A stretch of DNA of 34,412 nucleotides, from assembly GCA_014384545.1 (NCBI GenBank), contig JACNFQ010000050.1, positions 1 through 34,412 on the forward strand, written 5' to 3'. A model generated the notes under the pieces. The model did no database searches. It saw nothing but the letters and a program-made list of their open reading frames with translations, and was not told where the DNA came from. Shown here one piece after another: positions 3 through 25,243 of the stretch (the stretch's first letter is position 1; each line of letters begins with the position of its first letter). This stretch comes from a bacterium. Its GTDB lineage: Bacteria > UBP7 > UBA6624. A program made the translations under genes and the position numbers.

Positions 3-623
3 GCGTTTGATGGTCTTCACCTAGAAGGGCATCGTCTCTTTGGTCCAGGCTCTACACTCCATTTGGTTTGGGCACGCCAAACAGAGAGTCCCTCTGTGGA
101 CCAATCGGCAAACCTCTTTATCGCTTCCACACTTGGTGCTCTTGGAAATGGTTGGGACCTTCGCCTTGGCACGTCGCTAGGGGTAAACAGCCGTGAGGGC
201 GGATTGCTAGGGACAAGTGAACGACATAAAGCGTTTTGGATCGGTGTGGATGGGACTCTCCTTGAAGCGCTTTCGTTGTCGGTTGATTGGCACCAAACGA
301 ATGGAGAAAACTTGATGGGCAACCCCAACGGAGCAACGAAGGATGACGCCTGGAAAACGAGTCTCTCCTTCCCGCTGTTTGGCGATTGGGTCGCTACCTT
401 CCAAGTTGCACAATGGGGTGGAGCAGCGTTGATTCCTGGAATGGGAGGTTTGGGGAATGGCCCCCTCTCTCCCTTCTCCAATGGCGCAGGGGGCTTTGCA
501 ACGGATGGTCAAGAGATTCAATATCGCCTTCACTATCGCGATTGGGAGGGGGGCTATGCCCTCCTAAGAGCCGAGAGCAACAAGGCGACGACTCTCTTCC
601 TTAGGTATCGTGTTCTGTTTTGA
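3..623 (+). CDS. Partial (5' truncated) outer-membrane beta-barrel-like protein, C-terminal part
   Basis: Frame is open from base 3 through 623; alternating amphipathic strands and a C-terminal aromatic residue (...LFLRYRVLF) typical of outer-membrane barrels. The ORF-track start at 63 is probably internal. Confidence 0.6.
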   Translation, partial: AFDGLHLEGHRLFGPGSTLHLVWARQTESPSVDQSANLFIASTLGALGNGWDLRLGTSLGVNSREGGLLGTSERHKAFWIGVDGTLLEALSLSVDWHQTNGENLMGNPNGATKDDAWKTSLSFPLFGDWVATFQVAQWGGAALIPGMGGLGNGPLSPFSNGAGGFATDGQEIQYRLHYRDWEGGYALLRAESNKATTLFLRYRVLF

Positions 624-1912: not shown

Positions 1913-2684
1913 AGCGACCTTAGGGAAGCGTCTTTCTCTCCTTGAAGAAAGGGGAGAAGGTTGGGAAGAGGTTTATAGGAATCTGGCACAACGAGATTGG
2001 AGACTTCCTATTATTGTCCTAGCAGGCCCCCCTGGTGCTGGGAAGTCTACGCTCCTTGCTCATGTAGCTCTCCACCACCCTCAATGGGCCTACTTACTGG
2101 TAGACCCCACAGACCCCCTTACAGGCGGGGCTGTTCTTGCCGACAGGGCGCGCATACCCTTTATGGAGGATGCCCCTTTTGTCCGCTCTGTGGCTACTCG
2201 TGGCTCGGCGGGGGGTGCCGCCACAGCACTTTGGCCGATGTTGCGGCTCTTCAACGAAGAGAACTATCCCGGGGTCGTTGTGGAGAGCGTAGGTGTGGGG
2301 CAAGTCGCCGACTCTCTCCGTGCCCTCGCTGATCTTCTCATTGTCGTCCTCTCTCCCGAAACGGGAGATGCCCACCAAGCCGTCAAGGGTGGCTTACTTG
2401 GTGAGGCGGATATTGTGGTCGTAAACAAAGGTGATTTACCCGGTGCAGAAGCGTTGGTAGGTCATCTCAATGCTCTAAGCCAGAAAGATCCTCTCCTCGT
2501 TTCTGCGATGGTGGGGAGCGGACTTGTCCCTCTATTAGACCGTCTCAATCACCTCCCACCCATCGATATCCCGAGGCGACTTCGCGGAGAAGCGAAGGAC
2601 TTTGCTTTGGCGGGATTCTCATCGGAGTTGGAGCAACGCCTTGACGCCTGGAATCTTGAAGGAACGCCTCTTGACCTGCCCTAG
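1905..2684 (+). CDS. MeaB/ArgK-like GTPase (B12-mutase chaperone family)
   Basis: P-loop GPPGAGKST; DPTDPLTGGAVLADRARI and FVRSVATRGSAGG blocks; ESVGVGQ; VNKGD. Short (259 aa). Overlaps mtaD by 8 bp. Confidence 0.85.
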   Translation: MDRATLGKRLSLLEERGEGWEEVYRNLAQRDWRLPIIVLAGPPGAGKSTLLAHVALHHPQWAYLLVDPTDPLTGGAVLADRARIPFMEDAPFVRSVATRGSAGGAATALWPMLRLFNEENYPGVVVESVGVGQVADSLRALADLLIVVLSPETGDAHQAVKGGLLGEADIVVVNKGDLPGAEALVGHLNALSQKDPLLVSAMVGSGLVPLLDRLNHLPPIDIPRRLRGEAKDFALAGFSSELEQRLDAWNLEGTPLDLP

Positions 2685-2711
2685 TTCATCTGACACCCTA
2701 GGATTCCCCCT

Positions 2712-3089
2712 ATGAAAGTATTGGTGGCAAAAGTGGGGTTGGATGGACATGACCGGGGGGCGTTGCTGGTGGCGAGGGCGTTGCGGGATGCGGGGCACGA
2801 AGCGATTTACTCGGGGCTACACCGAACCCCACCTGAAGTGGCACAGATGGCAGCAGAGGAGAGTGTAGATGTCGTCGCTTTGGGTATCTTGTCAGGTGCC
2901 CATATGACTTTAGTTCCTAAAGTGCTTTCGGCGATGGAAACGGAAGGGATTTCAACGCCTGTTGCAGTCGGCGGCATAATCAGCGATACCGAGGCGAAAC
3001 TTCTGAAAGAGTTGGGCGTGGGCGCGGTCTTTCCACCGGGTACCCCGATGGCAGAAGTCGTCTCTACCCTTGAATCACTAACCGAATGA
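2712..3089 (+). CDS. Stand-alone cobalamin (B12)-binding domain protein, methylmalonyl-CoA mutase C-terminal-domain type
   Basis: KVGLDGHDRG (DxHxxG), SGLHRTPPEVAQMA, LGILSGAHMTL, VGGIISD; 125 aa single domain. Confidence 0.9.
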   Translation: MKVLVAKVGLDGHDRGALLVARALRDAGHEAIYSGLHRTPPEVAQMAAEESVDVVALGILSGAHMTLVPKVLSAMETEGISTPVAVGGIISDTEAKLLKELGVGAVFPPGTPMAEVVSTLESLTE

Positions 3090-4555
3090 ACTTTGCGACC
3101 TTCTTTGCCTTCCTTTTGGGGGCCGCTACTTTGGCGTTCGAGGTCTATGGTCCCCGTTTGATCCAGTCCCATTTTGGGTTTAGTCCCGTTCTTTGGGCTT
3201 CGGTCATTTCTGTCTTCTTGGGAGGGCTAACGGTGGGCTATTTCTTGGGGGGTCGTATCGCCGAAGATTCGATGCGAAGAACGAAGATCTTCTTCCTTTG
3301 GATGGGGGCTGGGCTCTTCGTCTTCTTCTCGCCTGTAATCGCTTCCTCTGTTGCTGAACTCTTCCTTTCCCGGCCTGGTGCTCCTCCACTTTGGGAACCC
3401 CTAGCAGGAGCGTTCCTCATCTTCTTCCTTCCCACCGTGGCGATGGGCACAGCGTTGCCTGTTTTGGTGGCGATTACGCCCACTGGTGGAAAGGGCGCCG
3501 GGCGCCATACGGGACGCCTTTTAGGTATTAGCACCTTGGGGAGTATCTTAGGGGTACTGGGACTTACATTCGGATTAATGGGTAGGCTATCCCTTCCTCA
3601 GATTGCACTCGTCCTTGCGCTGCCATGGGTCGCTGGAGCCTTCTGGATGCTCAGAAGGAAAACTCGACCGATAAATGCCATCAGCACCCTCCTTTTTCTC
3701 GCACTTCTTGGTTCACTTCCCCATGCGGAGAAAACCTTATGGGAGGGGGACTCTTTGCTTCACCACATTCGCGTTGCAGAAGATAAGACCCATCGCGCCC
3801 TTTTCTTCAACAATTGGATGGAGAGCGTGATGCTTATTGATGATCCCTTAAAAGGGCACTTCCATTACATTGAGGCGTTCCATCTTGCAGCTCATGCGGT
3901 AGAGAAAAAGGGGCGAGTCTGTTTGGTCGGCTTAGGAGGGGCTTCAGCAGCAAGGACATTCTTGGCACGGTATCCCCAAATGGAGATGGTCGCTGCCGAG
4001 ATTGACCCCAAGGTAGAGGAACTTGCCCAGAAGTGGTTTGGAATCCCCTCTGAACGGATGGAAGTGAGGATTCAGGATGGAAGGCAGATGTTCAAGAGAG
4101 AGGGTGCCCCTACCTGCAAAGTCGTCTTGCTGGATGCGTATTCAGCAAGCCGGTATGGGGCTTGGATACCCTGGCATCTAACCACAAAGGAGTTCTTTAC
4201 AGAGGTGCGGGGGCAAATGCCCGAGGGAGGCGTCGTCGCTTACAACGTGATTGGACAGGTAGATGGCGCTTCTTCGTGGCCCGTTCAGGCGATTGCCAAG
4301 ACGATGGGAACTGTCTTCCCATCGGTTTGGGCTTTGCCCATTCCCGAAAGTAGGAATGTCGTCCTATTTGGGTTTACCACACCACAAGACGAGGATACCG
4401 ACTGGTCTACCTTGGTCGGTTGGGGGGGCGCACCCGAACTCTTGAGGCAACTCACCAGCCGAATGACTCTAGAGATTCCTCAATCTAAGGGTATCCCCAT
4501 CCTCGTAGACGACTTTGCCCCCATTGACCTGCCCGGTCTGATGATAGGTCCCTAA
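3086..4555 (+). CDS. Membrane protein with C-terminal spermidine-synthase-like (SAM-binding) domain
   Basis: Multiple hydrophobic segments in the first ~200 aa, then CLVGLGGASAARTFLARYPQMEMVAAEIDPKVEELAQKWFG and DGRQMF / VVLLDAYSA. ATGA overlap with the B12-domain gene. Confidence 0.75.
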   Translation: MNFATFFAFLLGAATLAFEVYGPRLIQSHFGFSPVLWASVISVFLGGLTVGYFLGGRIAEDSMRRTKIFFLWMGAGLFVFFSPVIASSVAELFLSRPGAPPLWEPLAGAFLIFFLPTVAMGTALPVLVAITPTGGKGAGRHTGRLLGISTLGSILGVLGLTFGLMGRLSLPQIALVLALPWVAGAFWMLRRKTRPINAISTLLFLALLGSLPHAEKTLWEGDSLLHHIRVAEDKTHRALFFNNWMESVMLIDDPLKGHFHYIEAFHLAAHAVEKKGRVCLVGLGGASAARTFLARYPQMEMVAAEIDPKVEELAQKWFGIPSERMEVRIQDGRQMFKREGAPTCKVVLLDAYSASRYGAWIPWHLTTKEFFTEVRGQMPEGGVVAYNVIGQVDGASSWPVQAIAKTMGTVFPSVWALPIPESRNVVLFGFTTPQDEDTDWSTLVGWGGAPELLRQLTSRMTLEIPQSKGIPILVDDFAPIDLPGLMIGP

Positions 4556-4580
4556 GGGTTCTCTCTTCTAGAATCCCACT

Positions 4581-7500
4581 ATGAATGCTCCTCGGCGCTT
4601 TCTAACAGCGGCCAGTCTCTTTGATGGTCATGACGCTGCCATCAATCTCATTCGTCGCCTCATTCAAGATGCCGGTGGAGAAGTCGTTCATATGGGGCAC
4701 GACCGCTCGGTGGAGGAGATTGTGATTGCTGCACGGCAAGAGGACCCCCACGCCATCGCCCTCTCGTCCTACCAAGGCGGGCATATCGCTTACTTCACCT
4801 ACTTACTAAAACGGCTCAAGGAAGAGGGGCTGGGGCATATTAGGGTATTTGGGGGGGGTGGGGGTACGATCCTGCCCGAGGAGGCACGCGAACTTGAACG
4901 GCGTGGTGTTGCCCGGATATTTCGACCCGAGGACGGCACCGACAAAGGACTTGAAGGCATTATTTCTGAAGTCTTTGACCTTTGCGATGTGGAACCCTCA
5001 TCACTCAAGTCCAACAAAGGTGAAGGCGCTTTGGCGAGGGCCCTTACACGGATTGAGACGGGCAATCTTGAAGAAGGCGAAGCACCAAGTAAGGGCGCAT
5101 TGGTGGTGGGGTTTACAGGAACGGGTGGTGCGGGAAAATCATCTCTTATTGACGAACTCGTTCTTCGCCTGCGGCGGCAAGAACCAAATAGACAGATTGC
5201 GATACTAGCAGCCGACCCCACAAGAGAACGGACAGGGGGGGCGCTCTTGGGAGACCGAATCCGAATGAATGCGATCTACGACGGTGGTGTCTTTATGCGA
5301 AGCCTCGCTGCCCGACGGGAGCGCCCCCTTATTGAGATTGTAGCATCGGCGGTAGAGAGAACGAAAGCCGCGGGATACGACTTGGTGATGGTTGAAACCC
5401 CTGGCATTGGGCAAGCAGACAACCCGCTTGGCGACCTTTGCGACCTCTCGCTATATGTCATGACTAGTGATTATGGTGCTCCCTCCCAACTAGAAAAAAT
5501 AGAGATGTTAGATAGAGCAGACTTAGTCGTCTTGAACAAGTTTGACCATCGCGCTGGCGAGGACGCTCTTAGAGAAGTGCGCAGACAAGTCAGGCGTCTC
5601 CGATCCAAGGGAGAGGGCACCCTAGAAGAGCAACCCGTCTACCCCACAATTGCTAGCCAATATGCTGACAAGGGTGTGGATGCGTTGGCTACCGAGATAG
5701 AGAGACTGCTTTCGGGGGGGGATGGTGAGAGAACCCACCCTGTTGTTTCTGCCAGACAGCACCTAATACCATCCGATAGAGAGAGGTATCTTGCTGAGAT
5801 TGCACAGGTGGTGCGCCACCGTAGAAAGCGCGTATCTTCGCTATCAGGAAGAGTCCGCCTTGCAGAGGCATTGGCGACTCTCCTTATTGATGACGGAACG
5901 CCTCCACCATCTGGATTCGTCCCCTTCCCCTCTCCTCAAGGGACACTCCAAGAGAGATACAACGATGCGTTATCGGGGATGGGGGAGAGCGCCTTGGTCT
6001 CTTTGCGGGCGTATGACGAGACCGCAAAACGGTATGGAGGCGATACGGCGACCTATTCGGTGCGGGGAAATGAGATCAGCGTCCCCGCATCCACAGAGTC
6101 GCTCTCTGGGCTTCGAATTCCCAAAGTTGCACTCCCCCGCTTTTCCTCGTGGAGCGACCGCTTGGAGTGGATTGCCCAAGAGAATGTGCCTGGGGCATTC
6201 CCCTACACCCAGGGGGTCTACCCTTTCCGCCGTACAGGGGAAGCTCCCACACGGATGTTCGCTGGGGAAGGACCTCCAGAGAGGACGAACGCTCGTTTCC
6301 ATCTCCTTGCCGAGGGGCAACCCGCCACTCGCCTCTCCACGGCGTTCGACTCGCCCACCCTTTATGGCCACAACCCCGAACCCCGTCCCGATGTCTTGGG
6401 CAAGGTGGGGGAGAGTGGCGTCTCCATCGCCACCTTGGATGATATGAAACGCCTCTACGCGGGGTTTGACCTTTGCGCACCCACCACAAGTGTCTCTATG
6501 ACGATTAATGGCCCCGCCCCGATGCTCTTGGCGATGTTCCTGAACACCGCCATCGATGACAAACGGGGGCGGTTTGAGGACGAGAAGGGGAGAGAAGCGA
6601 CCCCTGAGGAGGCTCTCGCCCTTAGGAAGAAAGCTCTTCAGCGTGTGCGCGGCACTGTTCAGGCGGATATCCTCAAGGAAGACCAAGCACAGAACACCTG
6701 CATCTTCGGGACGCCCTTTGCCTTGCGGATGATGGGGGATATCCAATCGTGGTTTATTCAAGAGGGAGTAAGGAACTTTTACAGTGTCTCTATCAGCGGA
6801 TACCATATCGCCGAGGCTGGTGCCAACCCTATCTCTCAGTTGGCTTTTACTCTTGCCAACGGATTTACTTATGTGGAACATTACCTGTCGCGGGGGATGG
6901 AGATTGACGACTTTGCCCGCAACCTCTCCTTCTTTTTCTCTTCAGGCATGGATCCCGAATACCAAGTTCTGGGGCGGGTCGCACGACGCATCTGGGCGGT
7001 CGCTCTTAGGGACAGATATGGTGCGGGGGAACGGGCACAAAAACTAAAGTACCATATCCAGACAAGCGGGCGAAGCCTCCACGCCCAAGAGATTCAGTTC
7101 AACGACATCCGGACCACCCTTCAAGCACTGATGGCGTATTTTGATCGGTGCGACAGCCTCCATACCAACGCCTACGACGAGGCGATTACCACCCCCACCC
7201 CTGAAAGCGTCCGGCGCGCCCTTGCAATCCAACAGATTATCCAGCGGGAGTTCGGCACCGCCCAATGCGAGAACCCCCTCCAAGGCGGTTTCCTTGTGGA
7301 GGAGCTGACAGACCTTGTGGAAGAAGCGGTTCTGACCGAGTTTGAGAGACTCAGCCGCAGAGGAGGGGTCTTGGGTGCGATGGAGTTGGGCTACCAACGA
7401 GGGAAGATCCAAGAAGAGAGTCTCCATTACGAGCGACTAAAACATAGCGGGGAACTCCCCCTTATTGGCGTGAATACTTTTCTTGGAGACGACCCTCAGA

Positions 7501-7745
7501 TAGAAACACCCAAGAATGTCACCCGAGCCACAGAGGAAGAGAAAGATCTCTGCGTCGCCAGATGCATAGCCTTTGAGGGCGACCACGCCAAAGAGGCACC
7601 AGAAGCTTTGTCCCGTCTTCAGTATGCCGCCTTGGAGGGAAAGAACCTCTTTGAAGTGCTGATGGAGACGGTGCGTGTGGCAAGCCTAGGGCAAATCACC
7701 AAGGCACTTTACGGCGCTGGGGGTCGCTACCGCCGAAGCCTCTAG
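4581..7745 (+). CDS. icmF: Fused isobutyryl-CoA mutase (B12-binding + G-protein chaperone + mutase catalytic domain)
   Basis: 1054 aa; N-term ASLFDGHDAAINLIRRLIQDAGGEVVHMGHDRSVEEIV; central GTGGAGKSSLIDEL / ETPGIGQAD / LNKFD; C-term DMKRLYAGFDLCAPTTSVSMTINGPAPMLLAMFLNTAID. This is the IcmF domain order. Confidence 0.93.
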   Translation: MNAPRRFLTAASLFDGHDAAINLIRRLIQDAGGEVVHMGHDRSVEEIVIAARQEDPHAIALSSYQGGHIAYFTYLLKRLKEEGLGHIRVFGGGGGTILPEEARELERRGVARIFRPEDGTDKGLEGIISEVFDLCDVEPSSLKSNKGEGALARALTRIETGNLEEGEAPSKGALVVGFTGTGGAGKSSLIDELVLRLRRQEPNRQIAILAADPTRERTGGALLGDRIRMNAIYDGGVFMRSLAARRERPLIEIVASAVERTKAAGYDLVMVETPGIGQADNPLGDLCDLSLYVMTSDYGAPSQLEKIEMLDRADLVVLNKFDHRAGEDALREVRRQVRRLRSKGEGTLEEQPVYPTIASQYADKGVDALATEIERLLSGGDGERTHPVVSARQHLIPSDRERYLAEIAQVVRHRRKRVSSLSGRVRLAEALATLLIDDGTPPPSGFVPFPSPQGTLQERYNDALSGMGESALVSLRAYDETAKRYGGDTATYSVRGNEISVPASTESLSGLRIPKVALPRFSSWSDRLEWIAQENVPGAFPYTQGVYPFRRTGEAPTRMFAGEGPPERTNARFHLLAEGQPATRLSTAFDSPTLYGHNPEPRPDVLGKVGESGVSIATLDDMKRLYAGFDLCAPTTSVSMTINGPAPMLLAMFLNTAIDDKRGRFEDEKGREATPEEALALRKKALQRVRGTVQADILKEDQAQNTCIFGTPFALRMMGDIQSWFIQEGVRNFYSVSISGYHIAEAGANPISQLAFTLANGFTYVEHYLSRGMEIDDFARNLSFFFSSGMDPEYQVLGRVARRIWAVALRDRYGAGERAQKLKYHIQTSGRSLHAQEIQFNDIRTTLQALMAYFDRCDSLHTNAYDEAITTPTPESVRRALAIQQIIQREFGTAQCENPLQGGFLVEELTDLVEEAVLTEFERLSRRGGVLGAMELGYQRGKIQEESLHYERLKHSGELPLIGVNTFLGDDPQIETPKNVTRATEEEKDLCVARCIAFEGDHAKEAPEALSRLQYAALEGKNLFEVLMETVRVASLGQITKALYGAGGRYRRSL

Positions 7746-8545
7746 TCGAGGGCTGGGGAGGGGGCGGTCTCCCCAGGACCGAGCCCGACGCGCTCTCGGG
7801 CGAAGTCAAGAGCCTCCTGGAAAAGGCTCCGGGCCTCCGCTGTCCACTCAGCCGTTTCTGGCGTGGGCTGGGTGAAGGCGATGACATCGCTCCACCCCTC
7901 AATCGTTTCGGGGAGACGACCGGTGCGGTCGTAGGCCCACAAGAGAATCCCGCTTGTCCACCACTCCATATTGCGCTTTTCCTTGGCGGGATTTCGGGCG
8001 AAAGAAGTGTCAAGAACCCACCACCTCTCAGCCCATCCCTCGGTGCGCCCCTTCCCGCAGAAGAGCGCCCCCACCACCCTAGCCCCCTCCTCGACCGACT
8101 CCAGCCAGACCATCTTGACGCCCCCGTAAGGCATTTCCTTGTGGTGGAAGCCCTGAAGGTTGTCCTTGGAAGGGGTTGTCTCGGAAGGGAGCAAGACCCA
8201 TTCGGAGGCCTCCTCTCGGGGCAGGAAGGGCACCCAAGGGTTCTCCACTAGGTCGGACGCTTGTGGCAGAGACCCGCCAGCCCATCCCAAGGTGCCAAGG
8301 GAGAGGTACCACAGGCCCGGATGACAGTTGGCGTAGTCGCCCTGCGGGTGCCCCCATCTCTCGGGGAAATAGCGGGCCACGCCCGCTAGGATGTTCGGCT
8401 CTCCCGAATCGCTCTGGACCTGAGGAGCCACCTTCCCGGCAGTTGGGACCTCTCCTTCAGTCTGTGCAGTCAGACACCCCGCCAGCCCGAACAAGCCTAG
8501 GACCAACGCGCCTTGAGCCACCCGCCAATCGCTCTCTCTATCCAT
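7742..8545 (-). CDS. Putative lipoprotein of unknown function
   Basis: ATG at 8545 with GGGGAGGTG upstream; lipobox ..LGLFGLAGC; no family recognised. Stop codon shares CTAG with icmF. Confidence 0.65.
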   Translation of the reverse strand: MDRESDWRVAQGALVLGLFGLAGCLTAQTEGEVPTAGKVAPQVQSDSGEPNILAGVARYFPERWGHPQGDYANCHPGLWYLSLGTLGWAGGSLPQASDLVENPWVPFLPREEASEWVLLPSETTPSKDNLQGFHHKEMPYGGVKMVWLESVEEGARVVGALFCGKGRTEGWAERWWVLDTSFARNPAKEKRNMEWWTSGILLWAYDRTGRLPETIEGWSDVIAFTQPTPETAEWTAEARSLFQEALDFARERVGLGPGETAPSPALD

Positions 8546-15368: not shown

Positions 15369-15757
15369 CTCTTTTTCAAGGCGAAATCGGCTTGAATAAA
15401 GAGATATAAGAAAGCGATATCAATCAGAGCGAAGGGCATCAACACGCCTTGGTGAGGAACGGAGTTGCCTAAGAACAGGAATCCGAAAACAAGAGCGATG
15501 AAGACGCTCTTCATCAGAATGCCTAGCCAGACAATCCCTTTGTGACTCTTGGGGTCTTGAGCCACGAAGAGAAAACCTAGGCCAAAGATGAAGATGTAGA
15601 GAGCGGGAAGGAGGATGTAAACGGGATGCACCTCCATCGCTGCACGATCTCCCAATAAGTCAAAGATTCTCTGTCCAAAGAGGGCGAAACCCGCCCCCAA
15701 AACGATGTCGTACCACCCCCCCCACCAAAATATCGTCCTAATCACACTTTCCTTCAT
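15365..15757 (-). CDS. Small integral membrane protein, about four TM segments
   Basis: 130 aa with evenly spaced hydrophobic segments; ATGA overlap with the radical SAM gene. Confidence 0.65.
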   Translation of the reverse strand: MKESVIRTIFWWGGWYDIVLGAGFALFGQRIFDLLGDRAAMEVHPVYILLPALYIFIFGLGFLFVAQDPKSHKGIVWLGILMKSVFIALVFGFLFLGNSVPHQGVLMPFALIDIAFLYLFIQADFALKKS

Positions 15758-17064
15758 TGTGCCCTCCTTGTCTCTTCCACTCTCATCTTACGGTATCTTC
15801 GCCGCCTCTTTTCTGTTTCTTCTTTAGAGTAAAGGAGACGAACGAGGTTCACAAATTGACGCCGAAAATAACTCTCCGTCATCCCTAACGGTTTGAAGTT
15901 CAGGTCAAAAAGGGTGCACCTATCCCAAGCCCCTTCTCTCAGGATACGCCTCTCTTTTTTGAGTCGGGCATAGAGGGGCGTTCCCGGAAAGGGCGTCAAG
16001 ACCGTAACTTGAACCTCATAGAGTGAACTCTCTCTTGAGAATCTGAGTACATCTTCAAAGACTTCGGGGGAATCACCATCAAGCCCTAGAACGAAACATC
16101 CATTGACGGTAATTCCCCTAGATTGAATCGCCTGAATCGATCGCTTATACCCTTTGACCTTTCCTGCCTTCCAGTTGGCTTGCATCTCCACACCCTCTAA
16201 AGATTTGCGCCTTGGGCTTTCGAGTCCAATAAGAACCTGTTGACAACCCGATTCAGCAAGGAGATCAAGAAGTTCTGGGTCTTCGCCGATGGAGATATCT
16301 GTTTCAGTAAACCACCTTATTCTCTCCAGAGCCAACGCCTTCAAAAGCCTCCTTGAATACGCTCTGTCCACAAAACTGTTGTCATCTGCTAGCTCAATAA
16401 AGGGGTTATTCCAGATTCGTTTGATAGCACGGATCTCTTCCACCACTTTCTCAACGGGTTTGGTCTTATACTTGGGGGCGATTAGGTATGAACTGGCACA
16501 GAAATCACATCGCCAAGGGCACCCTCTGCTCGTTTGGACTGTCAAACGGTTGTATCTATTGGCGTCAAGGAGGTCAAATCTTGGGATAGGTGCATCTGCT
16601 AGGTCAAAAGGAAGTGCTGTTCTATAGACTTGCTTAAGAGATCCCTTTTCGCAATCTCTAAGCACTTCCCCCCAAAGAGGCTCCCCCTCTCCTATCACGA
16701 CGCTGTCGCAGTGGAGAAGTGCCTCATCAGGACAGACCGATACATGGAGCCCCCCCATCACGACCTGCGTCCCCATTGAGCGAAACCTCTCAGCGACTTT
16801 GTAAGCCTCAAAAACCTGTGCTGAAAAAGTACTCAGAGCAACGATGTCCAAACTTTGAGGCAATCTCCCCCCCTCTCTATAGTCCTCAATCTCATAGTAA
16901 GAGATGTCGTGGTGCTCGGGTGTCAGAGCTGCCAGAGTAATGAGCCCCAAACTGGGCAATGAAGCAATCACTTTGTTTCGTTCTACAAACCCAGGCAAGG
17001 TAAGCCCCAATGCTGTCAGTGCAGGATCGTGGGCACGAACCCCACTCATCGCCACAAACCCCAC
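15754..17064 (-). CDS. B12-binding-domain radical SAM protein
   Basis: TSRGCPWRCDFCASS (CxxxCxxC); N-terminal Rossmann-like LVMGGLHVSVCPDEAL..VVIGEGE; start taken as GTG 17064 (ATG 17049 possible), just after the upstream stop. Confidence 0.88.
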   Translation of the reverse strand: MGFVAMSGVRAHDPALTALGLTLPGFVERNKVIASLPSLGLITLAALTPEHHDISYYEIEDYREGGRLPQSLDIVALSTFSAQVFEAYKVAERFRSMGTQVVMGGLHVSVCPDEALLHCDSVVIGEGEPLWGEVLRDCEKGSLKQVYRTALPFDLADAPIPRFDLLDANRYNRLTVQTSRGCPWRCDFCASSYLIAPKYKTKPVEKVVEEIRAIKRIWNNPFIELADDNSFVDRAYSRRLLKALALERIRWFTETDISIGEDPELLDLLAESGCQQVLIGLESPRRKSLEGVEMQANWKAGKVKGYKRSIQAIQSRGITVNGCFVLGLDGDSPEVFEDVLRFSRESSLYEVQVTVLTPFPGTPLYARLKKERRILREGAWDRCTLFDLNFKPLGMTESYFRRQFVNLVRLLYSKEETEKRRRRYRKMRVEETRRAQ

Positions 17065-17066
17065 CC

Positions 17067-17426
17067 TCAAAACAGATATCGAAGAGCACTTATCGTGCCA
17101 AGAAGGAGGGCAGCAACGGGGATGCCAAAAAGCCATTTTAGGCGTGGATTGGACGCAAAGAGAATACAGGCTAGGGGCATCGTTACTGCACCAAGAATGA
17201 AAGCGCCCTCCGCCACGGGGTGCGCCTTCTCCAACGATGAAAGGGTTAGGGAAAGGAGAATATTCAAGACGCCTAATCCGAAGAAAGAGATGTGAGCAAG
17301 GCGATACAAACGGCGACGAAGCGAACTATACCCGCCCAACCAACCCTCTTTATTGAAGCGAAGACCGAGGAATGCCCCAGAAACAAACCCAAGGGAAATC
17401 CAGACCCATCCAAAGAGAAGATTCAC
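17067..17426 (-). CDS. Small integral membrane protein, about four TM segments
   Basis: GTG start with GGAGGTGG upstream; hydrophobic segments across 119 aa. Confidence 0.6.
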   Translation of the reverse strand: MNLLFGWVWISLGFVSGAFLGLRFNKEGWLGGYSSLRRRLYRLAHISFFGLGVLNILLSLTLSSLEKAHPVAEGAFILGAVTMPLACILFASNPRLKWLFGIPVAALLLGTISALRYLF

Positions 17427-17544
17427 GGAGCCACCTCCACTTACCGACTAAAGTCCAAGTCTAAACGAAGCCACCCCAAAGAGAATGGGACTCTTTCTCC
17501 TATCTATCTCCAATCATGTGAACTTGAAGGTAGCGTATATAATA

Positions 17545-17568
17545 GACATACCGACCGGTAGGTATGTC
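17545..17568. promoter_or_regulatory. Putative TetR-family operator overlapping the tetR start codon
   Basis: GACATACCGACCGGTAGGTATGTC: inverted repeat with 11 of 12 half-site positions complementary; lies just downstream of TATAAT (17538-17543). Confidence 0.75.
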
Positions 17569-18175
17569 ACTACTTCAAGCCCAATCCCAAGCGACGATTC
17601 GTCGCATCCAAGACGCTGCACGCACCCTCTTTCTCCAGAGGAGCTATGCCGATGTATCGATGTCAGACATTGCACAATCAGCGGCACTAACGAAGGGCGC
17701 TCTATATCACCACTTTCGGAGCAAAGAATCACTCTATTTGGAGATGATGCATGCCGATTTGGATAGCAAACGAACACTCTTTCTTAGTGCGATTGAAGAA
17801 CCGGGGTCTACAAGGGATAGATTGGCTAGGCTCACACTCGCTTATTTTTCGTTGCCTGCCTCTCAGCGCGACCTTATCCGCTTGGTTAGGCGCGACAACA
17901 ATGTCTTTGAAGAACCCCTGCGAAGCGCGTTGGTCGCCGCCTACCAAAGGGCACTTCCTGAACCGGTAGAAACGGTCTTGAGAGAAGGCATCCACCGTGG
18001 CGAAATTGCCCCTACCGACCCCCGCCTCCTCTCGTGGCAATATGTCGCCTTGGTTGAAACGGCTCTTTCTCCCCACGCTGACCGCGTTCTTCCCACAGCC
18101 AAAGAGAAGGTAGCCTACACACTTTCCCTCTTCCTTGAGGGCTCAATAGGAGATTCGAATGCAAAAGATTCTTGA
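17564..18175 (+). CDS. TetR/AcrR-family transcriptional regulator
   Basis: RIQDAARTLFLQRSYADVSMSDIAQSAALTKGALYHHFRSKESLYLEM HTH block. Confidence 0.93.
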   Translation: MSLLQAQSQATIRRIQDAARTLFLQRSYADVSMSDIAQSAALTKGALYHHFRSKESLYLEMMHADLDSKRTLFLSAIEEPGSTRDRLARLTLAYFSLPASQRDLIRLVRRDNNVFEEPLRSALVAAYQRALPEPVETVLREGIHRGEIAPTDPRLLSWQYVALVETALSPHADRVLPTAKEKVAYTLSLFLEGSIGDSNAKDS

Positions 18176-19319
18176 TTGGGAAGGGCTCTCCCTAAATGAA
18201 GTCCTAACTTTGGCACGGGATGTCCTTGAAGACCCGGACCTTCCTACTGTCGCCAAATGGCGAGAAGGAGGGGGAAAGGTTTTGGGTCATTTCCAGGTCT
18301 ATTTCCCCGAAGAGATTGCTCATGCTGCGGGGATGCTTCCTTTCAAGATGAAGGGATTCCCTGTCGCTCCCGACCATGCAGATTCTCGCTTTGGCTCCTT
18401 CCTCTGTTCCATCATCAAAACCTCTCTAGAGGTCGCTCTCTCGGGTACCTTGAAACTCGACATGTTCGTCACGCACCCCATCTGTGATGCTGCCCGAAAC
18501 CTAGGGGCAATTTTTGGTCGGAATTTCACCCACCCCTCCCCCATTCTTTACCTCCCTCAAAACCCCAACTCGTCCCACTCCGTTGTTTGGCTGACCGAAG
18601 AGTATGAACGGCTTCAAAAGATGGTGGAAGAGGTTGCCGGGAAGAAGATCTCTCAACAAGACCTAGCACACTCCATCGCTCTCTTCAACACCAACCGAGC
18701 CCTGATCCGTAAACTCTATGCATTAAAAGACGCAACCCCGTGGAAGATTGCAGCAGAGGATGCCTATGCATTGGTCGCCTTGGCTGGTTTTGTTCCCCGA
18801 GAAGAACATAACGCCCTCCTTGAGTGGGTTCTCCCCCAACTCCAAAGTAGAGACTCTCGCGAAGAGGACCGTGTTCGTATCGTCTTTGAAGGCGCATTTT
18901 GCGAGCAACCCCCTCTAGATCTTGTCCGCCTTCTGGGTCGAACGACTTACGTCGTGGATGATGATTTCCTTATCGGTCTTAGATACCTCTTGGAGGATGT
19001 ACATCCAGGAGACGACCCCCTAGAAGCACTTGCCGAAGCTTACATCAATGCCTCTTCGTACAGCCCCGTCCAGCACGACAACCGCAAGCACAAGGAGAAA
19101 CTCCTCTTGGGGAGGATTCGTAATGCCCGCGCTGGTGCTGCCGTGGTGGGCGCTGCCAAGATGTGCGAGCCGGGTCTAGAAGAGTTGGTCAACTACACCC
19201 ACGCTCTAGATGATGCTGGTATCCCCCATTTTGTGACCGAGTTTGAGGAGAACATGACGAGTTTCTCTACCCTTGAACTCCAGTTAGAGACTTTTGTAGA
19301 GAATATGCTTTTTGCCTAG
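18159..19319 (+). CDS. Benzoyl-CoA reductase / 2-hydroxyacyl-CoA dehydratase family FeS subunit (BcrC/BzdN-like)
   Basis: 386 aa; FPEEIAHAAGMLPFKMKG, FGSFLCSIIKTSLEVALSG, THPICDAARNLG, GAAKMCEPGLEE. Overlaps tetR by 17 bp. Confidence 0.85.
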   Translation: MQKILDWEGLSLNEVLTLARDVLEDPDLPTVAKWREGGGKVLGHFQVYFPEEIAHAAGMLPFKMKGFPVAPDHADSRFGSFLCSIIKTSLEVALSGTLKLDMFVTHPICDAARNLGAIFGRNFTHPSPILYLPQNPNSSHSVVWLTEEYERLQKMVEEVAGKKISQQDLAHSIALFNTNRALIRKLYALKDATPWKIAAEDAYALVALAGFVPREEHNALLEWVLPQLQSRDSREEDRVRIVFEGAFCEQPPLDLVRLLGRTTYVVDDDFLIGLRYLLEDVHPGDDPLEALAEAYINASSYSPVQHDNRKHKEKLLLGRIRNARAGAAVVGAAKMCEPGLEELVNYTHALDDAGIPHFVTEFEENMTSFSTLELQLETFVENMLFA

Positions 19320-19335
19320 GAGGAACGTAAGACTT

Positions 19336-20616
19336 ATGGATTCAATTATTGGAAGAGGAAACAAAGAAGGAGCCCAAATGTTCAGGGACTGGTTTGATGG
19401 TCTGACCCAAACCGCCAATGCGGGCAATAAGGCTGCGTATGTCTTTGTGATGGGTAGCTTTAATGAGATACTGCTCTCCTTTGACCTTCCAGTCGTCTTC
19501 CCTGAGATTCACTCCCTCCAAACAGCCGTACGACGCTCGGCACTTCCCCTCCTGCAAGAAGCAGAGGACCATGGCTATTCCCCTGATATCTGTGGGTATG
19601 TAAAGGCTGATATAGGTGTTCAACTTCGTGGTGGCGAACACCCTATGGGGAAGATTCCCAAGCCCGGAATTGCCGTTTATACGAATGCTTGCAACACTTA
19701 TATCAAGTGGGCTGAAGCCTGGGAGCGAATGCACGGATGCCCCATCTTTACTCTTGATGTCCCGGGGTCCCGAGAGGCTGACGGAATCAGTTGGCAAGGT
19801 GATTCCTCTTTTGAGAGCGACCGCAAATATGTAGAAGTCCAAATCCGCGAACTCATCACCCTCTGTGAAGAGATTACAGGGAAGAAGTTCGATATTGACC
19901 GCCTCCGAGAAACGATGAATCATGCCAATGCCATCAATAGAGGATGGGCCCGTATCCTGGAACTCAATAAGAGTCGCCCCTCCCTCTTCAATGCCCTAAC
20001 CGATGGCACCATCTACTTGGGCGTTGCGAATGTGATGCGTGGAACCAAAGAGGCAGCTGATTACTTTGACAGATTGGTAGAAGAGATGGAAACGAAAGCA
20101 GCACAGGGCATTGGAACCCTTGCCGAGGAAGAATGGCGTCTCGCTTTTGTCGGTGTTCCCTGTTACCCCATCTTTCGCCGATTCAACGAGATCTTTTCCG
20201 AATGGAAGGGTACATTCGTGACAAGCACCTACCTTTGGTTCGCTTCGGGTGGATCCAACATAGGGTTCCAATACGAGATGAAGGACCCCATAAAAAGTCT
20301 ATCTGAGGGCGTTCTCATCAGTGTAAGAGATTCAATGGACTCTATGTTTCACCAAGATCGCATTATCCCAAAGATGGTTGAGGAGTTTGATTTGGATGGC
20401 GTCGTTTATCACCCCATCAAGAGCTGCAGAACAGTAAGCACGGGTTTAGCGGATAGCAGACGTGTGCTCACCGACCAAGGTATTTCTAGCCTCTTTATAG
20501 AGAGCGACATGATGGACAAGCGCGTCGTGTCAGAGGCTCAGATGAAAAATAGGATTGATGCCTTTTTTGAAGGTTTGGCATCAAAGCGAAAACAGCTCTT
20601 GGTGGCAGGAGGTTAG
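19336..20616 (+). CDS. Benzoyl-CoA reductase / 2-hydroxyacyl-CoA dehydratase family FeS subunit (BcrB/BzdO-like)
   Basis: SD taggagga before ATG 19336; [40 protein letters not shown]. Confidence 0.85.
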
Positions 20617-20618
20617 TC

Positions 20619-21431
20619 ATGGCTTATTCAGGTGGCGTTGATGTGGGAAGCACCCAAACGAAAGCCGTAATTCTTGACGAGGATGGTGCGATTATCGGTC
20701 GATCCCTAACGGATACAGGGGCGAATGTGATGGCTGCCGCCAAAGGTGCCTTTAGAGACGCTTTAGAGGACGCTGGTCGCATGGAACAAGAAGTGGAATG
20801 GGTCATTGGTACAGGGTATGGAAGGTATCGCGTGACTTTTGGCAACGACCAAGTCACCGAAATCTCTTGCCACGGACGAGGGGCTGTTCATCTCCATCCA
20901 GACACCCGCACCGTCTTGGATATGGGGGGTCAAGATACGAAGGCGATCAAAGTTGCTCCCAGTGGAGAGATTCTGGACTTCTGCATGAACGACAAGTGTG
21001 CTGCGGGAACGGGGCGTTTCTTAGGCGCTGCCTCTTCGGCACTTGGGATTCCCCTTCCCGACTTAGGACCCACCGCCCTCAAAGCCCGCAAAAGCGTCCG
21101 CATCAGCACGACGTGCACCGTCTTTGCCGAATCGGAAGTTCTTGCTTGGTTGGGCAAGGGGAAAAAAGTGGAAGATATCCTCTGGGGCGTTCACCAATCA
21201 ATCGCCACCCGTTCTATGGGACTCTTGAGACGCGTTGGGGTCGTTGAAGAAGTGACTTTCACTGGGGGAGTCTCCAAGAACGAGGGGATGGTAAAAGCGC
21301 TTGAAGATGCCACAGGCGTTTCTCTCAACATCAGCCCCGAAGGACACTATATGGGCGCCGTTGGGGCAGCACTTTTTGCCCTTGATCATATCTTAGCGAG
21401 CCGCATTCCCAAGGCTGTGGAGGCATCATGA
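20619..21431 (+). CDS. BadF/BadG/BcrA/BcrD-family ATPase (activator subunit 1)
   Basis: [78 protein letters not shown]. Confidence 0.92.
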
Positions 21432-22240
21432 CCATTACGGCAGGTATCGATGTAGGTAGCACCTACGCAAAGGCTCTAATCTTGGACGACAGAATGAAGA
21501 TCTTGGGACAATCGATGCTCCCCACAGGATTCCTATTGGGCAAAGTCGCAAGAGATAGTTTCGAACTTGCCCTCAAAGAAGCTGGACTCGAACAGGGGGA
21601 TATCTCATACACCATCTCAACAGGGTATGGACGCCACCAAGTTGATTTCAAGGATATGGCAGTGACCGACCTAACTGCAGGGGCTAGGGGTGCCATTCAC
21701 CTCTATCCCAATACACGCACCATTCTGGATGTGGGTGGACAGACAATGAAAGCGCTCAAAGTCGACGAAAAGAAGATGATTCAAGGGTTCCGCCTGAACG
21801 ACAAGTGTGCAGCCGGCACAGGGGCATTCTTAGAGAAAACAGCACGGTATATGGGGTACGAAACAGAAGAGATTGCCCCCCTGCTCCTTACCTCTAAGAG
21901 TCCGGTTTCGATTTCGGGTGTCTGTGCCGTCTTTGCCGAATCAGAAGTCATCAACCACCTTTCTCAAGGTGCTCCCCCTTCGGAAATCATGCAAGGTTCT
22001 GTTGAATCCCTTACACAGCGTGCCCTCCAACTCATGAAACGCGTCAAGGGTGGTCCAGGCTATTCTCTTATTGGAGGGATTATGCGCTTTTCTACGATGC
22101 CCAAAGCCGTCAAAGACGCTTTAGAGGGCGAAGTGAATATCCCCGAGGGTGAAATGACCCAATACATCGCTGCTCTGGGCAGCGCACTCCTCGGTCACCT
22201 CCGATTAGAGAGACTCGCCTCAGAAGCCGCCACGGTATGA
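21428..22240 (+). CDS. BadF/BadG/BcrA/BcrD-family ATPase (activator subunit 2)
   Basis: [65 protein letters not shown] overlap with subunit 1. Confidence 0.92.
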
Positions 22241-22524
22241 CGGGGCTTGGCGACAGACTCCCTCTTATCCAAGGACCTGCACCACCTAAAGGCGATACCG
22301 ACCTCATCAAAGCAGGTTGGACCCGACGGTTCCAAGCCGACGAAAACAGGGCAAAGGAAGCGCGTGAACTTTACGAAAGTATGGGGCTTGAAGTCAAAAT
22401 CGTTCCGCTTGCACCCACCGAGTTTGCGAGTGCTTGTGGCACTTGCCCTCAAACAGCTGCTAAGGGGAGCTTTCTTGTCTATACCCGAAAACGAGACAGA
22501 TCAACATCCCACAACACCACCTAG
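22237..22524 (+). CDS. Small CxxC protein of unknown function, last gene of the reductase operon
   Basis: 95 aa, ATGA overlap; KAGWTRRFQADENRAKEARELYESMGLEVKIVPLAPTEFASACGTCPQTAAKGSFLVYTRK. Confidence 0.7.
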   Translation: MTGLGDRLPLIQGPAPPKGDTDLIKAGWTRRFQADENRAKEARELYESMGLEVKIVPLAPTEFASACGTCPQTAAKGSFLVYTRKRDRSTSHNTT

Positions 22525-24245
22525 CCAAGGTATCCCATTTCACGCAGTCGTGCTTTGATCGCTTCTTCCTCTTCTGCCGTATAGTCTCGCCCCTCCCTCT
22601 TTCCCTGAGTTCCTTCACGCTTCACGAGGGGTCTCTTCCCTTCCTCCCAGATGTCCATCTCACGGCTATCAATATCTTCTGGTACAGGAATCCCCAGCTG
22701 AGAGAGTATCGATAAGTAGGGGTCCGAAATAGCCGCCTCCTTTCCCTTCTTGCCCACTTTGATTCCTGGTCCTTTTGCCATCCAAATTCCTTCCATCCTA
22801 TGGAATCCGTTGTAGGGAAGAATAGCGTCACTCCAACTGGGGGTCAAATCGAAACGACGAAAGAGCGAACGGTATTTTGGAGGAATCTCATCTTCTGAAG
22901 GATCCAACACGCCTGTTTCGGCTAGGTTCCATTCCACCACCAAATCTGGCGCTTCCTCCAAAAAGGGCCCCCTATAAATCTCCTCTCTTCGGTGCACTTT
23001 CTTGACCGCTTTGATTCCATTCTTCAGACTAGCCTCCTCAAAGAGCTTGATTAGTTCCTCACGCAAGTTCTCATACTCTTCAGCCTCAACGATTCCTCGG
23101 GGCTCTCGCCCCTTAAGATTGATATGGATTTCTCCCATATTCTTGGCGTCTGTTACATAGACTCTCGTTTGCGACCAATCATAGATAGATAAGATCGTCA
23201 TCCCTTCTTTATACGCCTCTTTCTGTTTCTCGAAGAGTCGGTTCAGGAATCTCTTCAAGGGAAGGGGCAGAACCTTCTTTAGAGCCAAGAAAAGGTGGTG
23301 CTTTAGGCTAGAGAACTTCCCCAACAACGGAGCGAGCGCAATCATCTTTTCGGCCTTTGCCACGGGCACCTTCAAGCGAAGATACCCCTCTGCCTCCAAA
23401 AAGCCGACGAAGTCGGGGACTCTGTGGAAGGGTCCCATCCCATGGTCGCTCAGTATCCAAGTTGTCGTCTTTTCACCCACACACGCTGCCATGATTTCAC
23501 CCACTGCCTTGTCCACCTCTTGGTAGACCTCTCGCATCACGCCGCCAAACCGCTCCGCCTCCCTTTCGTCGTGGAGTGGATGTTCCCTGTCGTGGAATTT
23601 CCAGAAATAGTGCCCCACCTGATCGGGTGAGGGGAAAACGATAAAGAAGAGATCCAACTCGTGGTTCTCTAACAGATGGAGAGAAAGCCTCCGTTGGAAG
23701 TCCGTATAGGACAAGAGGTTTTCTCGTAGAACCCCATATCCCTCTTTCGTTTTTCTCCCCGGAGCAAACTCCATCATGCCATAGGGCTCTCCCAAGGCGT
23801 TCTCTACCTCCTTGCGTAAATCCTTCGGCGAAAAAACAGATTCATCTTCAGGGCTAGGTGCCCCCATCCCCGCAATGTAGATTCCATCCAAAACCTCGGC
23901 TGGGAAACCCATGGGGACATTCACAATCCCACATTTCAGCCCATGTTTTTCGGCTTGTCTCCAGAGAGACGGACCCGCCACATGGGTTCGGTTTGGAAAC
24001 CTCAGGTCGTAGGTTCCCCTTACGACTTGAGAGAAATCAAAGACCCCCGTCTTTCCGGGATTCTTGCCCGTTACCATACTTGCCCATGCACACGGCGTTA
24101 TCGGCTCTAAAGTGCTTATAAGAACACCTCTAGAACCTCCCTTGGCGATACGGGATAGGTGGGGGAGGCTTCCCTCATCCATCCACGGCTCCATCAAATC
24201 CCAAGTCGCACCATCCAACCCCAAGATCAAAGAGCGAACGCTCAC
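22521..24245 (-). CDS. Alkaline-phosphatase-superfamily phosphodiesterase / nucleotide pyrophosphatase-like protein
   Basis: LILGLDGATWDLMEPWMDEGSLPHL, EPITPCAWASMVTGKNPGKTGVFDF, TWILSDHGMGPF, YNGFHRMEGIWMAKGPGI. GTGA overlap with the upstream gene suggests start at 24245. Confidence 0.85.
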   Translation of the reverse strand: MSVRSLILGLDGATWDLMEPWMDEGSLPHLSRIAKGGSRGVLISTLEPITPCAWASMVTGKNPGKTGVFDFSQVVRGTYDLRFPNRTHVAGPSLWRQAEKHGLKCGIVNVPMGFPAEVLDGIYIAGMGAPSPEDESVFSPKDLRKEVENALGEPYGMMEFAPGRKTKEGYGVLRENLLSYTDFQRRLSLHLLENHELDLFFIVFPSPDQVGHYFWKFHDREHPLHDEREAERFGGVMREVYQEVDKAVGEIMAACVGEKTTTWILSDHGMGPFHRVPDFVGFLEAEGYLRLKVPVAKAEKMIALAPLLGKFSSLKHHLFLALKKVLPLPLKRFLNRLFEKQKEAYKEGMTILSIYDWSQTRVYVTDAKNMGEIHINLKGREPRGIVEAEEYENLREELIKLFEEASLKNGIKAVKKVHRREEIYRGPFLEEAPDLVVEWNLAETGVLDPSEDEIPPKYRSLFRRFDLTPSWSDAILPYNGFHRMEGIWMAKGPGIKVGKKGKEAAISDPYLSILSQLGIPVPEDIDSREMDIWEEGKRPLVKREGTQGKREGRDYTAEEEEAIKARLREMGYLG

Positions 24246-25243
24246 CCTGCACACCCCCCGCCCACCACCCTCGTTCCTTTATAGATCACAACACTCTGTC
24301 CGGGTGCCACGACTATGGGCTGGGTAAACCGAACCGTAGTTCCGTCAAACTCTTCCACCTTGTGACGCTTTCCCCGATGACGGATACGCGCTTCCAACCC
24401 CCCTCCTCTGCACCGAGAAATGAGATTAACAGAGGTTAGGGGCACTTCATTCCTTGCTCCTGCTCCATAGGGGCCAACTGTCACTGTATTCTTTTGGGCG
24501 TTCTTTCCCACAGCATAAACGGGTTGTCCCAATGCAACGCCCAATCCTCGTCGCTGACCCAAGGTGACGGTGTGTTGCCCCCTATGTTTTCCCACCACCA
24601 AACCCTCTAAGTCCAAGACTTCCCCTTCGTTCTCTTCTAGAAGAGCCGTAATACCTTGGGGGGCAAAACATAAATCTTGACTTTCTGGTGTCTCCGCAGT
24701 AGGAAGTCCTACCCGAGCTGCCTCCTGACGCACATCTCCCTTAGAGATATCCCGCCCCAAGGGAAAGAGAATCTTCTCCAAGGCAGGTTTTGGAGTAGAC
24801 CATAAGAACCAAGTCTGGTCTTTCTTAGTATTCGCCGCTTCATGGAGTTCCACTCCAGATTTGCCCTCTTCCCGTCGGGCATAATGTCCTGTCGCTAACT
24901 GCTCAACCCCCATCCTCCGAGCTTGTTCCAATAAGGCTCCAAACTTAACCACCCCATTGCAGTCGGCACAGGGACTGGGCGTCATCCCCTCTCGCAATCC
25001 CTTCAAGGCAGGCTCAATCACACCCTTCTGGAAAGCATCCGCATAATCAAGTGCAAAGAATGGAATCCCTAACTCTGTCGCTACTGCTCTAGCAGCCTCT
25101 GCGCTCCTCAAGTTGCAGCATCCACTTCCGTCGCCCTGCATCAGCTTTAGGAAAACCCCACCCACTTCGTGCCCCTCTTTGACCAATCGCCATGCAGCTA
25201 CAGAAGAGTCCACTCCTCCTGAAAGGGCGACAAGCACCCTCAC
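24242..25243 (-). CDS. mnmA: tRNA-specific 2-thiouridylase
   Basis: VRVLVALSGGVDSSVAAWRL PP-loop; PSPCADCNGVVKFG; ATGHYAR; KKDQTWFLW; SQDLCFAP. GTG start at 25243. Confidence 0.92.
   Translation of the reverse strand: MRVLVALSGGVDSSVAAWRLVKEGHEVGGVFLKLMQGDGSGCCNLRSAEAARAVATELGIPFFALDYADAFQKGVIEPALKGLREGMTPSPCADCNGVVKFGALLEQARRMGVEQLATGHYARREEGKSGVELHEAANTKKDQTWFLWSTPKPALEKILFPLGRDISKGDVRQEAARVGLPTAETPESQDLCFAPQGITALLEENEGEVLDLEGLVVGKHRGQHTVTLGQRRGLGVALGQPVYAVGKNAQKNTVTVGPYGAGARNEVPLTSVNLISRCRGGGLEARIRHRGKRHKVEEFDGTTVRFTQPIVVAPGQSVVIYKGTRVVGGGCAG

Follow-up and report, generated by a model that had tools for sequence, protein, structure and literature searches.

Organisation of the operon and its predicted operator

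Six ORFs occupy positions 17564-22524 of the plus strand of the window (the whole stretch of 34,412 nt that was analysed) and, since neighbours overlap or abut, we considered them as one tight operon. The gene order is tetR, two FeS subunits with an HGD-D domain, two differing activases of 270 aa each and a CxxC protein of 95 aa, and both the ORFs and Pfam agree in this with the layout given in a preliminary description of the same DNA. The first gene (17564..18175, +) encodes a TetR-family regulator of 203 aa (PF00440, TetR_N, 7.8e-17).

The ATG of tetR is overlapped by the palindrome GACATACCGACCGGTAGGTATGTC (17545..17568, core ATACN10GTAT at 17548-17565), a predicted operator through which TetR would regulate its own gene. 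The palindrome at the tetR start, ATACCGACCGGTAGGTAT, was also found at homologous tetR genes in other phyla. It is unique in the 1.39 Mb genome when ≤3 mismatches are allowed, and the chance expectation for such a site is 0.06 per window. When ATACN10GTAT was searched in 1.14 Mb of related loci, every site (13/13) lay just upstream of a homologous tetR; about 33 of the 80 related loci have this operon headed by a TetR homologue (about 45-58% identical). The form ATACN10GTAT is that of the MbdR operator (PMC4424350). An orthology of the regulator itself to MbdR is not evident, no chain named MbdR occurring among the 60 best PDB matches.

Directly 5′ of the operator we read a -10-like hexamer TATAAT (17538..17543, +). 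Because a good -35 is absent and the promoter scan gave no hit at this position, the hexamer is taken as a putative promoter element only.

Reductase subunits and their assignment

Few enzymes can reduce a benzene ring in the absence of oxygen, and class I reductases are some of them. Their MBR type (3-methylbenzoyl-CoA reductase, with a crystallised representative) has been characterised from a few Betaproteobacteria. The second gene of the operon (18159..19319, +) encodes an MbdN-like subunit (gamma) of 386 aa, with an HGD-D match of 3.8e-58 in Pfam and a phmmer score of 477 bits to MbdN (9g87_B). It is followed by the gene of the MbdO-like catalytic subunit (beta), of 434 aa (19312..20616, +; HGD-D 2.2e-60; 515 bits to MbdO, 9g87_A), whose start codon is either TTG or an internal ATG. 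For both HGD-D subunits the MbdO/MbdN match is the best by several hundred bits.

The two ASKHA activases, which the preliminary description had called distinct, indeed pair with different partners. The first (20619..21431, +; 270 aa; BcrAD_BadFG 3.4e-65; TIGR00241 260 bits) carries the motif TTCTVFAE and scores 403 bits to MbdQ (9gai_D); the second (21428..22240, +; 270 aa; BcrAD_BadFG 3.8e-48) scores 294 bits to MbdP (9gai_C) and has GGQTMK where GGQDxK would be expected, as does the solved MbdP. Taken together, the four subunits match MbdN/O/Q/P with E-values of 1e-87 to 1e-153, much better than any other solved family.

The tree of the O-subunit, an analysis proposed in the preliminary description, places the window protein and the solved MbdO in one MBR clade (100/100), with BcrB and its relatives as sister group (100/96); the MBR and BcrB groups fall together (98/98), apart from the dehydratases.

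The cysteines were examined in alignments. The preliminary description had counted three conserved Cys in each FeS subunit, a count that needs correction: Cys 83, 109, 248 and 336 of the MbdN-like subunit are all invariant and are predicted to bind the intermediate [4Fe-4S] cluster, and the MbdO-like subunit has three invariant cluster cysteines (Cys94/127/372) and a likewise invariant Cys284. The invariance of the cluster cysteines was seen in 79-83 aligned sequences. The four-Cys pattern of the N-subunit is common to the MBR and BCR types and unlike the extra-Cys pattern of the Bzd type. Glu65 of the MbdO-like subunit, which corresponds to the conserved FPE glutamate, is, like Cys94/127/372, invariant in 83 sequences.

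Judged from its subunit matches, clade and ligands, the operon encodes an ATP-dependent class I aryl-CoA reductase of the MBR type (MbdNOQP). In the preliminary description a class I ATP-dependent reductase with two distinct activases had been preferred to a 2-hydroxyacyl-CoA dehydratase, and the MBR matches and the tree bear this out.

Predicted reaction, lower pathway and the CxxC protein

As already remarked for the window, its genes scanned with Pfam or NCBIfam include none for a ferredoxin, hydratase, hydrolase or CoA ligase. Ring-cleavage genes, also described as missing, are indeed absent from the window; they are present in the genome, where the suggested search for ring-cleavage homologues and a ferredoxin was productive. 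On another contig (C74) an oah/BamA gene (611 bits; cut-off 464), an SDR, a Had-like and a Dch-like gene are contiguous, the Had-like and Dch-like proteins scoring 254 and 167 bits, under the NCBIfam equivalog cut-offs of 339 and 292, respectively. A 2-oxoacid:ferredoxin oxidoreductase and a small ferredoxin are encoded elsewhere in the genome. No aryl-CoA ligase was identified in the genome; of its two AMP-binding proteins one was scanned, and it fell below all cut-offs. Since reductase and lower-pathway genes lie on separate contigs of a metagenome bin that is 79% complete, the link between them is by genome only. Upstream of the oah cluster no copy of the operator was found in 20 kb at ≤4 mismatches.

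In other genomes the two sets of genes can be neighbours. A had-oah-dch-SDR cluster lies immediately upstream of mbdNOQP in distant genomes such as L038, L088 and L119. Of the 80 related loci, 31 have oah- or had-like genes near the reductase; in many others, mainly of Planctomycetota, the oah gene is absent within about 8 kb. The preliminary description had held that a complete standard benzoate pathway next to an identical operon in related genomes would speak against its reading; this arrangement is present in such distant genomes; the two genomes of the same family are without the reductase. A plasmid search for close relatives returned none with >28% identity.

We infer the following course of the reaction. 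MbdQ and MbdP would form an ATPase dimer with a single bridging [4Fe-4S] cluster, to which each contributes two Cys and which reduced ferredoxin would load. ATP hydrolysis would then push low-potential electrons through the four-Cys [4Fe-4S] cluster of MbdN to the active-site [4Fe-4S] cluster of MbdO, held by Cys94/127/372 and probably by water at the fourth position. There benzoyl-CoA, or a close analogue, would be reduced at its ring to a 1,5-dienoyl-CoA through the addition of a hydrogen atom, an electron and a proton, the last supplied by Glu65. The Dch-, Had- and Oah/BamA-type enzymes of the other contig could process this product onward. TetR, sitting on the palindrome over its own start, would repress the whole operon until released by an aryl-CoA, and the small CxxC protein would serve as a dedicated accessory of the reductase, in maturation, protection or electron delivery. 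We place high confidence in this explanation as a whole (MBR-type reductase, lower pathway on another contig, TetR autorepression, CxxC accessory). What the computation shows of it is the identity of the subunits and their clade, the conserved ligands, the presence of lower-pathway genes in the genome, the conservation of the operator and the association of the CxxC protein; the reaction, its substrate, the path of the electrons, the ligand of TetR and the accessory role are inferred.

A different reading concerns the substrate. V44, M47, A126 and Y130 of the MbdO-like subunit are common to 82/83 aligned O-subunits, and W309 to 79; the corresponding residues of MbdO, the only solved MBR, are C, A, Y, F and D. 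Because these five positions differ from the solved enzyme, the substrate may differ as well, and an MBR-type reductase acting on another aromatic CoA ester (a substituted benzoyl-CoA, a heteroaromatic or a larger aryl-CoA) would also suit the diverse neighbouring genes of the 80 related loci. Against this, the oah/BamA, Had and Dch homologues of the genome belong to the benzoyl-CoA pathway, and many loci pair the reductase with such homologues. We think a substrate other than benzoyl-CoA the less probable choice.

The active-site differences are shared across a reductase clade that spans many phyla. The MBR type is now found in Planctomycetota, Actinomycetota, Gemmatimonadota, Acidobacteriota, Chloroflexota, Zixibacteria, KSB1, Calditrichota and other groups, and some of the bins with an MBR-type reductase come from marine samples.

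The last gene (22237..22524, +) encodes the CxxC protein of 95 aa, with the pattern GW..R ... C67xxC70 ... YTR and no convincing Pfam match. In many bacterial phyla it accompanies class I reductases. Of the 72 loci that could be tested, 67 have a CxxC gene ≤400 bp 3′ of the MbdP gene. A set of 386 genomes contained 16 occurrences, of which 15 are inside class I reductase loci of either the MBR or the Bzd type, the latter in G033, G081, G161 and G317. The pair C67/C70 is invariant across 55 sequences. Pfam searches with these 55 members gave a best value of 0.0012, for a single member, and no family common to >3/55; a PDB profile search (best 0.015) and Foldseek of the AF2 model (pLDDT 77.8) against solved structures (best E 0.74) gave no credible match. 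A hemerythrin-like gene sometimes accompanies the CxxC gene.

This association suggests that the protein is a conserved accessory in operons for class I aryl-CoA reductases, one that Pfam and structure searches leave unnamed. The protein could instead be a passenger which operon inertia, and not reductase function, has retained; a second regulator would be an example. In favour of this are its place as the last gene, its absence from a few loci and an orphan copy (G124, L157) with no reductase in its vicinity. The presence of the protein at two separate reductase types of differing gene order, its near restriction to those loci and the invariance of the Cys pair make a passenger unlikely. A stronger proposal, on which we are evenly divided, is that the CxxC protein is a dedicated component of both MBR and Bzd systems, needed to mature, protect or feed a low-potential FeS enzyme in organisms that also encounter oxygen; the clade of the window (TetR - NOQP - CxxC) would then be a multi-phylum MBR subgroup distinguished by its active-site signature and perhaps also by its substrate. 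The gene may be a general missing part of the class I reductase system. If the protein proves necessary, it could help to explain the difficulty of producing and studying these reductases, and could serve as a marker for them in metagenomes.

Comparison with related enzyme systems

The 2-hydroxyacyl-CoA dehydratases (HadBC, HgdAB), which have one activator, share with the window proteins the HGD-D fold and a related activase. A dehydratase of this kind, or another non-dearomatising member with duplicated activase genes, would account for the common Pfam domain and for phmmer matches of 120-127 bits to HadB/HadC. We consider it very unlikely and reject the assignment: HadB/HadC-like models reach 155 bits against cut-offs of 700-750, the tree groups the window protein with MBR and not with HadB-like sequences, the two divergent activases pair one-to-one with MbdQ and MbdP, and oah (BamA) is present in the genome and, in other genomes, beside the reductase.

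The Bzd type (BzdNOPQ of Aromatoleum sp. CIB), in which the ATPase dimer is transient and the N subunit carries a double-cubane [8Fe-9S] cluster, shares class I chemistry, the catalytic Glu and the three O-subunit Cys, and has His131 of BzdO at the place of Tyr130. The preliminary description leaned towards it on account of the similar activase sizes; the MBR activases are equal-sized too (269 and 273 aa). A Bzd-type benzoyl-CoA reductase belongs to the same superfamily and its models do match weakly (TIGR03191/TIGR03190, 102 and 91 bits), but the cut-offs are 449 and 454 bits, these models give 700 and 554 bits for a true Bzd operon (G033), phmmer gives 95/88 bits to BzdO/BzdN, the extra cysteines (FCTY, PFC, QC, CPTK) are absent from the window, the solved MbdN and related MBR rows, and the FCExPP cysteine of the window subunit is absent from Bzd, so that we reject this reading as extremely improbable.

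The BCR type (BcrABCD/BadDEFG) is nearer in the tree, as the sister clade, and in the N-subunit cysteines. The window proteins stay below the cut-offs of its models TIGR02260/02263/02259/02261 (212, 209, 226 and 139 bits; cut-offs 487, 421, 578 and 313, respectively), and neither activase is a long BcrA-like one (270 aa, where the model has 432 positions).

The closest known system is mbd (MbdNOPQ of Thauera chlorobenzoica / Azoarcus (Aromatoleum) sp. CIB). It shares with the window the four subunits, the distinct activases of equal size and the cluster cysteines, as well as, by prediction, TetR control with an operator of the form ATACN10GTAT (PMC4424350). The window differs in that its genes are ordered N-O-Q-P in a single operon with tetR in front, without the ferredoxin MbdM and MbdWXYZ, and with an apparently extra CxxC gene.

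The operon and the class of its reductase

The operon proposed in the preliminary description is real: six contiguous plus-strand genes, overlapping or almost abutting, occupy positions 17564-22524 and encode, in order, a TetR regulator, two HGD-D proteins of 386 aa (N) and 434 aa (O), two BcrAD_BadFG activases of 270 aa each (Q and P) and a 95-aa CxxC protein. Since the larger flanking genes, for a B12-binding radical SAM protein (15754-17136, below all equivalog cut-offs) and a phosphodiesterase-family protein (22521-24254), are both on the minus strand, we considered the operon as a closed unit; its G+C content (0.52) is near that of its surroundings. Elsewhere in the window, at 620-7745, lie in a row genes for a TRZ/ATZ-type amidohydrolase, a MeaB GTPase, a lone B12-binding domain, a fused MFS/spermidine-synthase and a fused isobutyryl-CoA mutase, IcmF (1568 bits, cut-off 1500).

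The four subunits were compared with solved structures, and the best match of each was the MBR-type 3-methylbenzoyl-CoA reductase (entries 9g87 and 9gai, whose chains we take to be those of Thauera chlorobenzoica MBR), with 477 bits for N, 515 for O, 403 for Q and 294 for P. In the same comparison BzdN and BzdO scored 88 and 95 bits, and HadC and HadB 127 and 120 bits. The earlier assignment to class I aryl-CoA reductases was right; the MBR of strain 3CB-1 is described as a tetrameric class I enzyme (PMC11971306). The BCR, Bzd and dehydratase types were rejected, as their NCBIfam models all scored the window subunits far under their own cut-offs.

O-subunit sequences were placed in a tree by maximum likelihood. 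One clade (100/100) joined the window sequence to the solved MbdO and 30 others; within it, the exact position of the solved MbdO, on a long branch, is uncertain. Its sister group (100/96) consisted of two unassigned relatives and two true BcrB proteins, which scored 671 and 677 bits (cut-off 487), and both groups together were split from dehydratase-like sequences (98/98).

Lower pathway, electron supply and distribution

The compact operon had been noted for its lack of ring-cleavage genes; this puzzle is mostly resolved, because the enzyme, judged from its sequence, is an MBR-type member whose lower pathway lies elsewhere in the same genome (1.39 Mb, 79% complete, 107 contigs), on contig C74. 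The only HGD-D genes of this genome are the two of the operon. The order on C74 is oah/BamA (611 bits, cut-off 464), an SDR gene, a Had-like Zn-dehydrogenase (254 bits, under the cut-off of 339) and a Dch-like hydratase (167 bits, under the cut-off of 292). A few genes upstream of this run (L036, the C74 locus, 2604-8233) are those for a respiratory-type molybdopterin oxidoreductase, an ArrB/DsrO-like FeS subunit, NrfD and a chaperone; this oxidoreductase may serve as the electron sink when aromatics are degraded.

Regarding electron supply, contig C18 encodes the beta subunit and a portion of the alpha subunit of a 2-oxoacid:ferredoxin oxidoreductase, adjoining an acyl-CoA dehydrogenase gene; in Thauera, an oxidoreductase of this kind is known to reduce the ferredoxin used by BCR. 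An 83-aa ferredoxin is encoded on contig C66. COX1 was found in two pieces, at the ends of contigs C74 and C69, which are probably a single haem-copper oxidase gene broken by assembly. Given this gene, the organism can probably respire oxygen, in line with the rule that facultative anaerobes are the ones that use class I enzymes (PMC11971306).

A scan of 84,980 species genomes gave 262 encoding places, and the best 80 of these were used. All 80 are from metagenome bins, across many phyla, with 66-74% identity to the window O subunit and the NOQP order kept. An oah-like and/or had-like gene scoring >100 bits was present in 31 of these 80 loci (oah in 28, had in 26, both in 23), and in L038 (genome G055), L088 and L119 had-oah-dch-SDR-N-O-Q-P form a single run. 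In a chromosome-level Gemmatimonadota bin (bin118; L087 5-11300) a Bzd-type operon is adjacent to the MBR-type one. The reductase is absent from the two genomes of the window's own family, hence its presence there is patchy.

Several Planctomycetota loci (L045, L050, L056, L076, L079, L118 and others) have conserved 1010-aa, thiolase-like and 825-aa proteins preceding the MBR operon instead of oah/had, and may use a different lower pathway. Contig JASMMN010000024.1 has two mutually inverted copies of one MBR locus (L050 and L051), which may reflect an assembly artefact. In 14 of the best 80 loci, including L038 (8348-9106), L088, L119 and L133 (4330-4848), a hemerythrin-domain gene adjoins the CxxC gene or the reductase, as if serving oxygen sensing or protection.

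The CxxC protein

Of the best 80 loci (of 262), 72 had enough sequence beyond the MbdP match to contain the CxxC gene, and in 67 of these it lay no more than 400 bp downstream of that match. Among 386 genomes it occurred in 16, and the contexts were MBR subunits in 10 cases, Bzd subunits in 4, BzdV-/Had-like fragments at a contig end in 1 and an orphan in 1. In a subset of 60 mixed genomes, it was present in three only (the window's own, G055 and G033) and absent from the BCR-type genomes G027 and G034. The alignment was made from MBR loci, so that the link to Bzd loci did not arise from its construction; the Bzd subunits of G033 exceed the Bzd equivalog cut-offs, and in several Bzd-type loci a BzdV-like flavoprotein gene and a GNAT gene precede the CxxC gene. 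The orphan (L157 6017-6334, genome G124) is followed by a transporter-like gene and has no reductase subunit within 16 kb.

GW, CxxC and the T of YTR are invariant in the 55 aligned sequences. The protein gave no credible Pfam family and no match in PDB. Its AF2 model (pLDDT 77.8, with block means of at least 90 across residues 21-60 and low values at the N-terminus) has a beta-alpha-beta-alpha-beta fold. Possible roles for the two Cys are the binding of an FeS cluster or of zinc by a protein dimer, or a thiol switch.

Predicted operator and catalytic residues

The remaining interest lies in a phylum-spanning MBR clade with an active-site signature, a dedicated predicted operator and a conserved putative CxxC accessory. 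The predicted operator is the palindrome GACATACCGACCGGTAGGTATGTC, which overlies the tetR start codon and shares its core form, ATACN10GTAT, with the published operator of MbdR, a TetR repressor responding to 3-methylbenzoyl-CoA (PMC4424350); MbdR orthology of the window TetR protein is not evident. ATACN10GTAT has one site in the window (0.06 expected), and ATACCGACCRGTMGGTAT, at 3 mismatches, one in the whole genome. Related loci totalling 1.14 Mb contain 13 ATACN10GTAT sites, by position all just upstream of a homologous tetR, and the spacer between the half-sites is conserved too (ATACCGACCAGTCGGTAT, ATACTGACTGGTCGGTAT). About 20 more tetR homologues of these loci are without the strict site, several having variants, e.g. 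ACCGACCGGTCAGTCGGTCGGT.

In the BzdNO structure, an O-subunit [4Fe-4S]-OH2 cluster on three Cys gives a hydrogen atom to the ring, BzdO Glu65 protonates the ring and His131 contacts the water ligand (PMC11971306). The three cluster Cys align with C94, C127 and C372 of the window O subunit. As the alignment did not cover the stretch around Glu65, we infer from the sequence that E65, the FPE glutamate, is its natural counterpart. These four residues are invariant in 83 aligned O sequences. The position of His131 is Tyr130 in the window (82 of 83 sequences) and Phe in the solved MbdO, and positions 44, 47, 126 and 309 also set the clade apart from the latter. The MbdQ-like and MbdP-like proteins each keep one CAAGTG Cys and one VFAES-type Cys, with GGQTMK in the MbdP-like protein against GGQDTK in the MbdQ-like one, a contrast also seen in the solved pair.

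Four Cys, one of them in FCExPP, are invariant in the N subunit, a pattern in common with the BCR type, whereas the extra N-subunit cysteines of the Bzd type are absent; a plain four-Cys [4Fe-4S] cluster is, for this reason, the likely electron relay.
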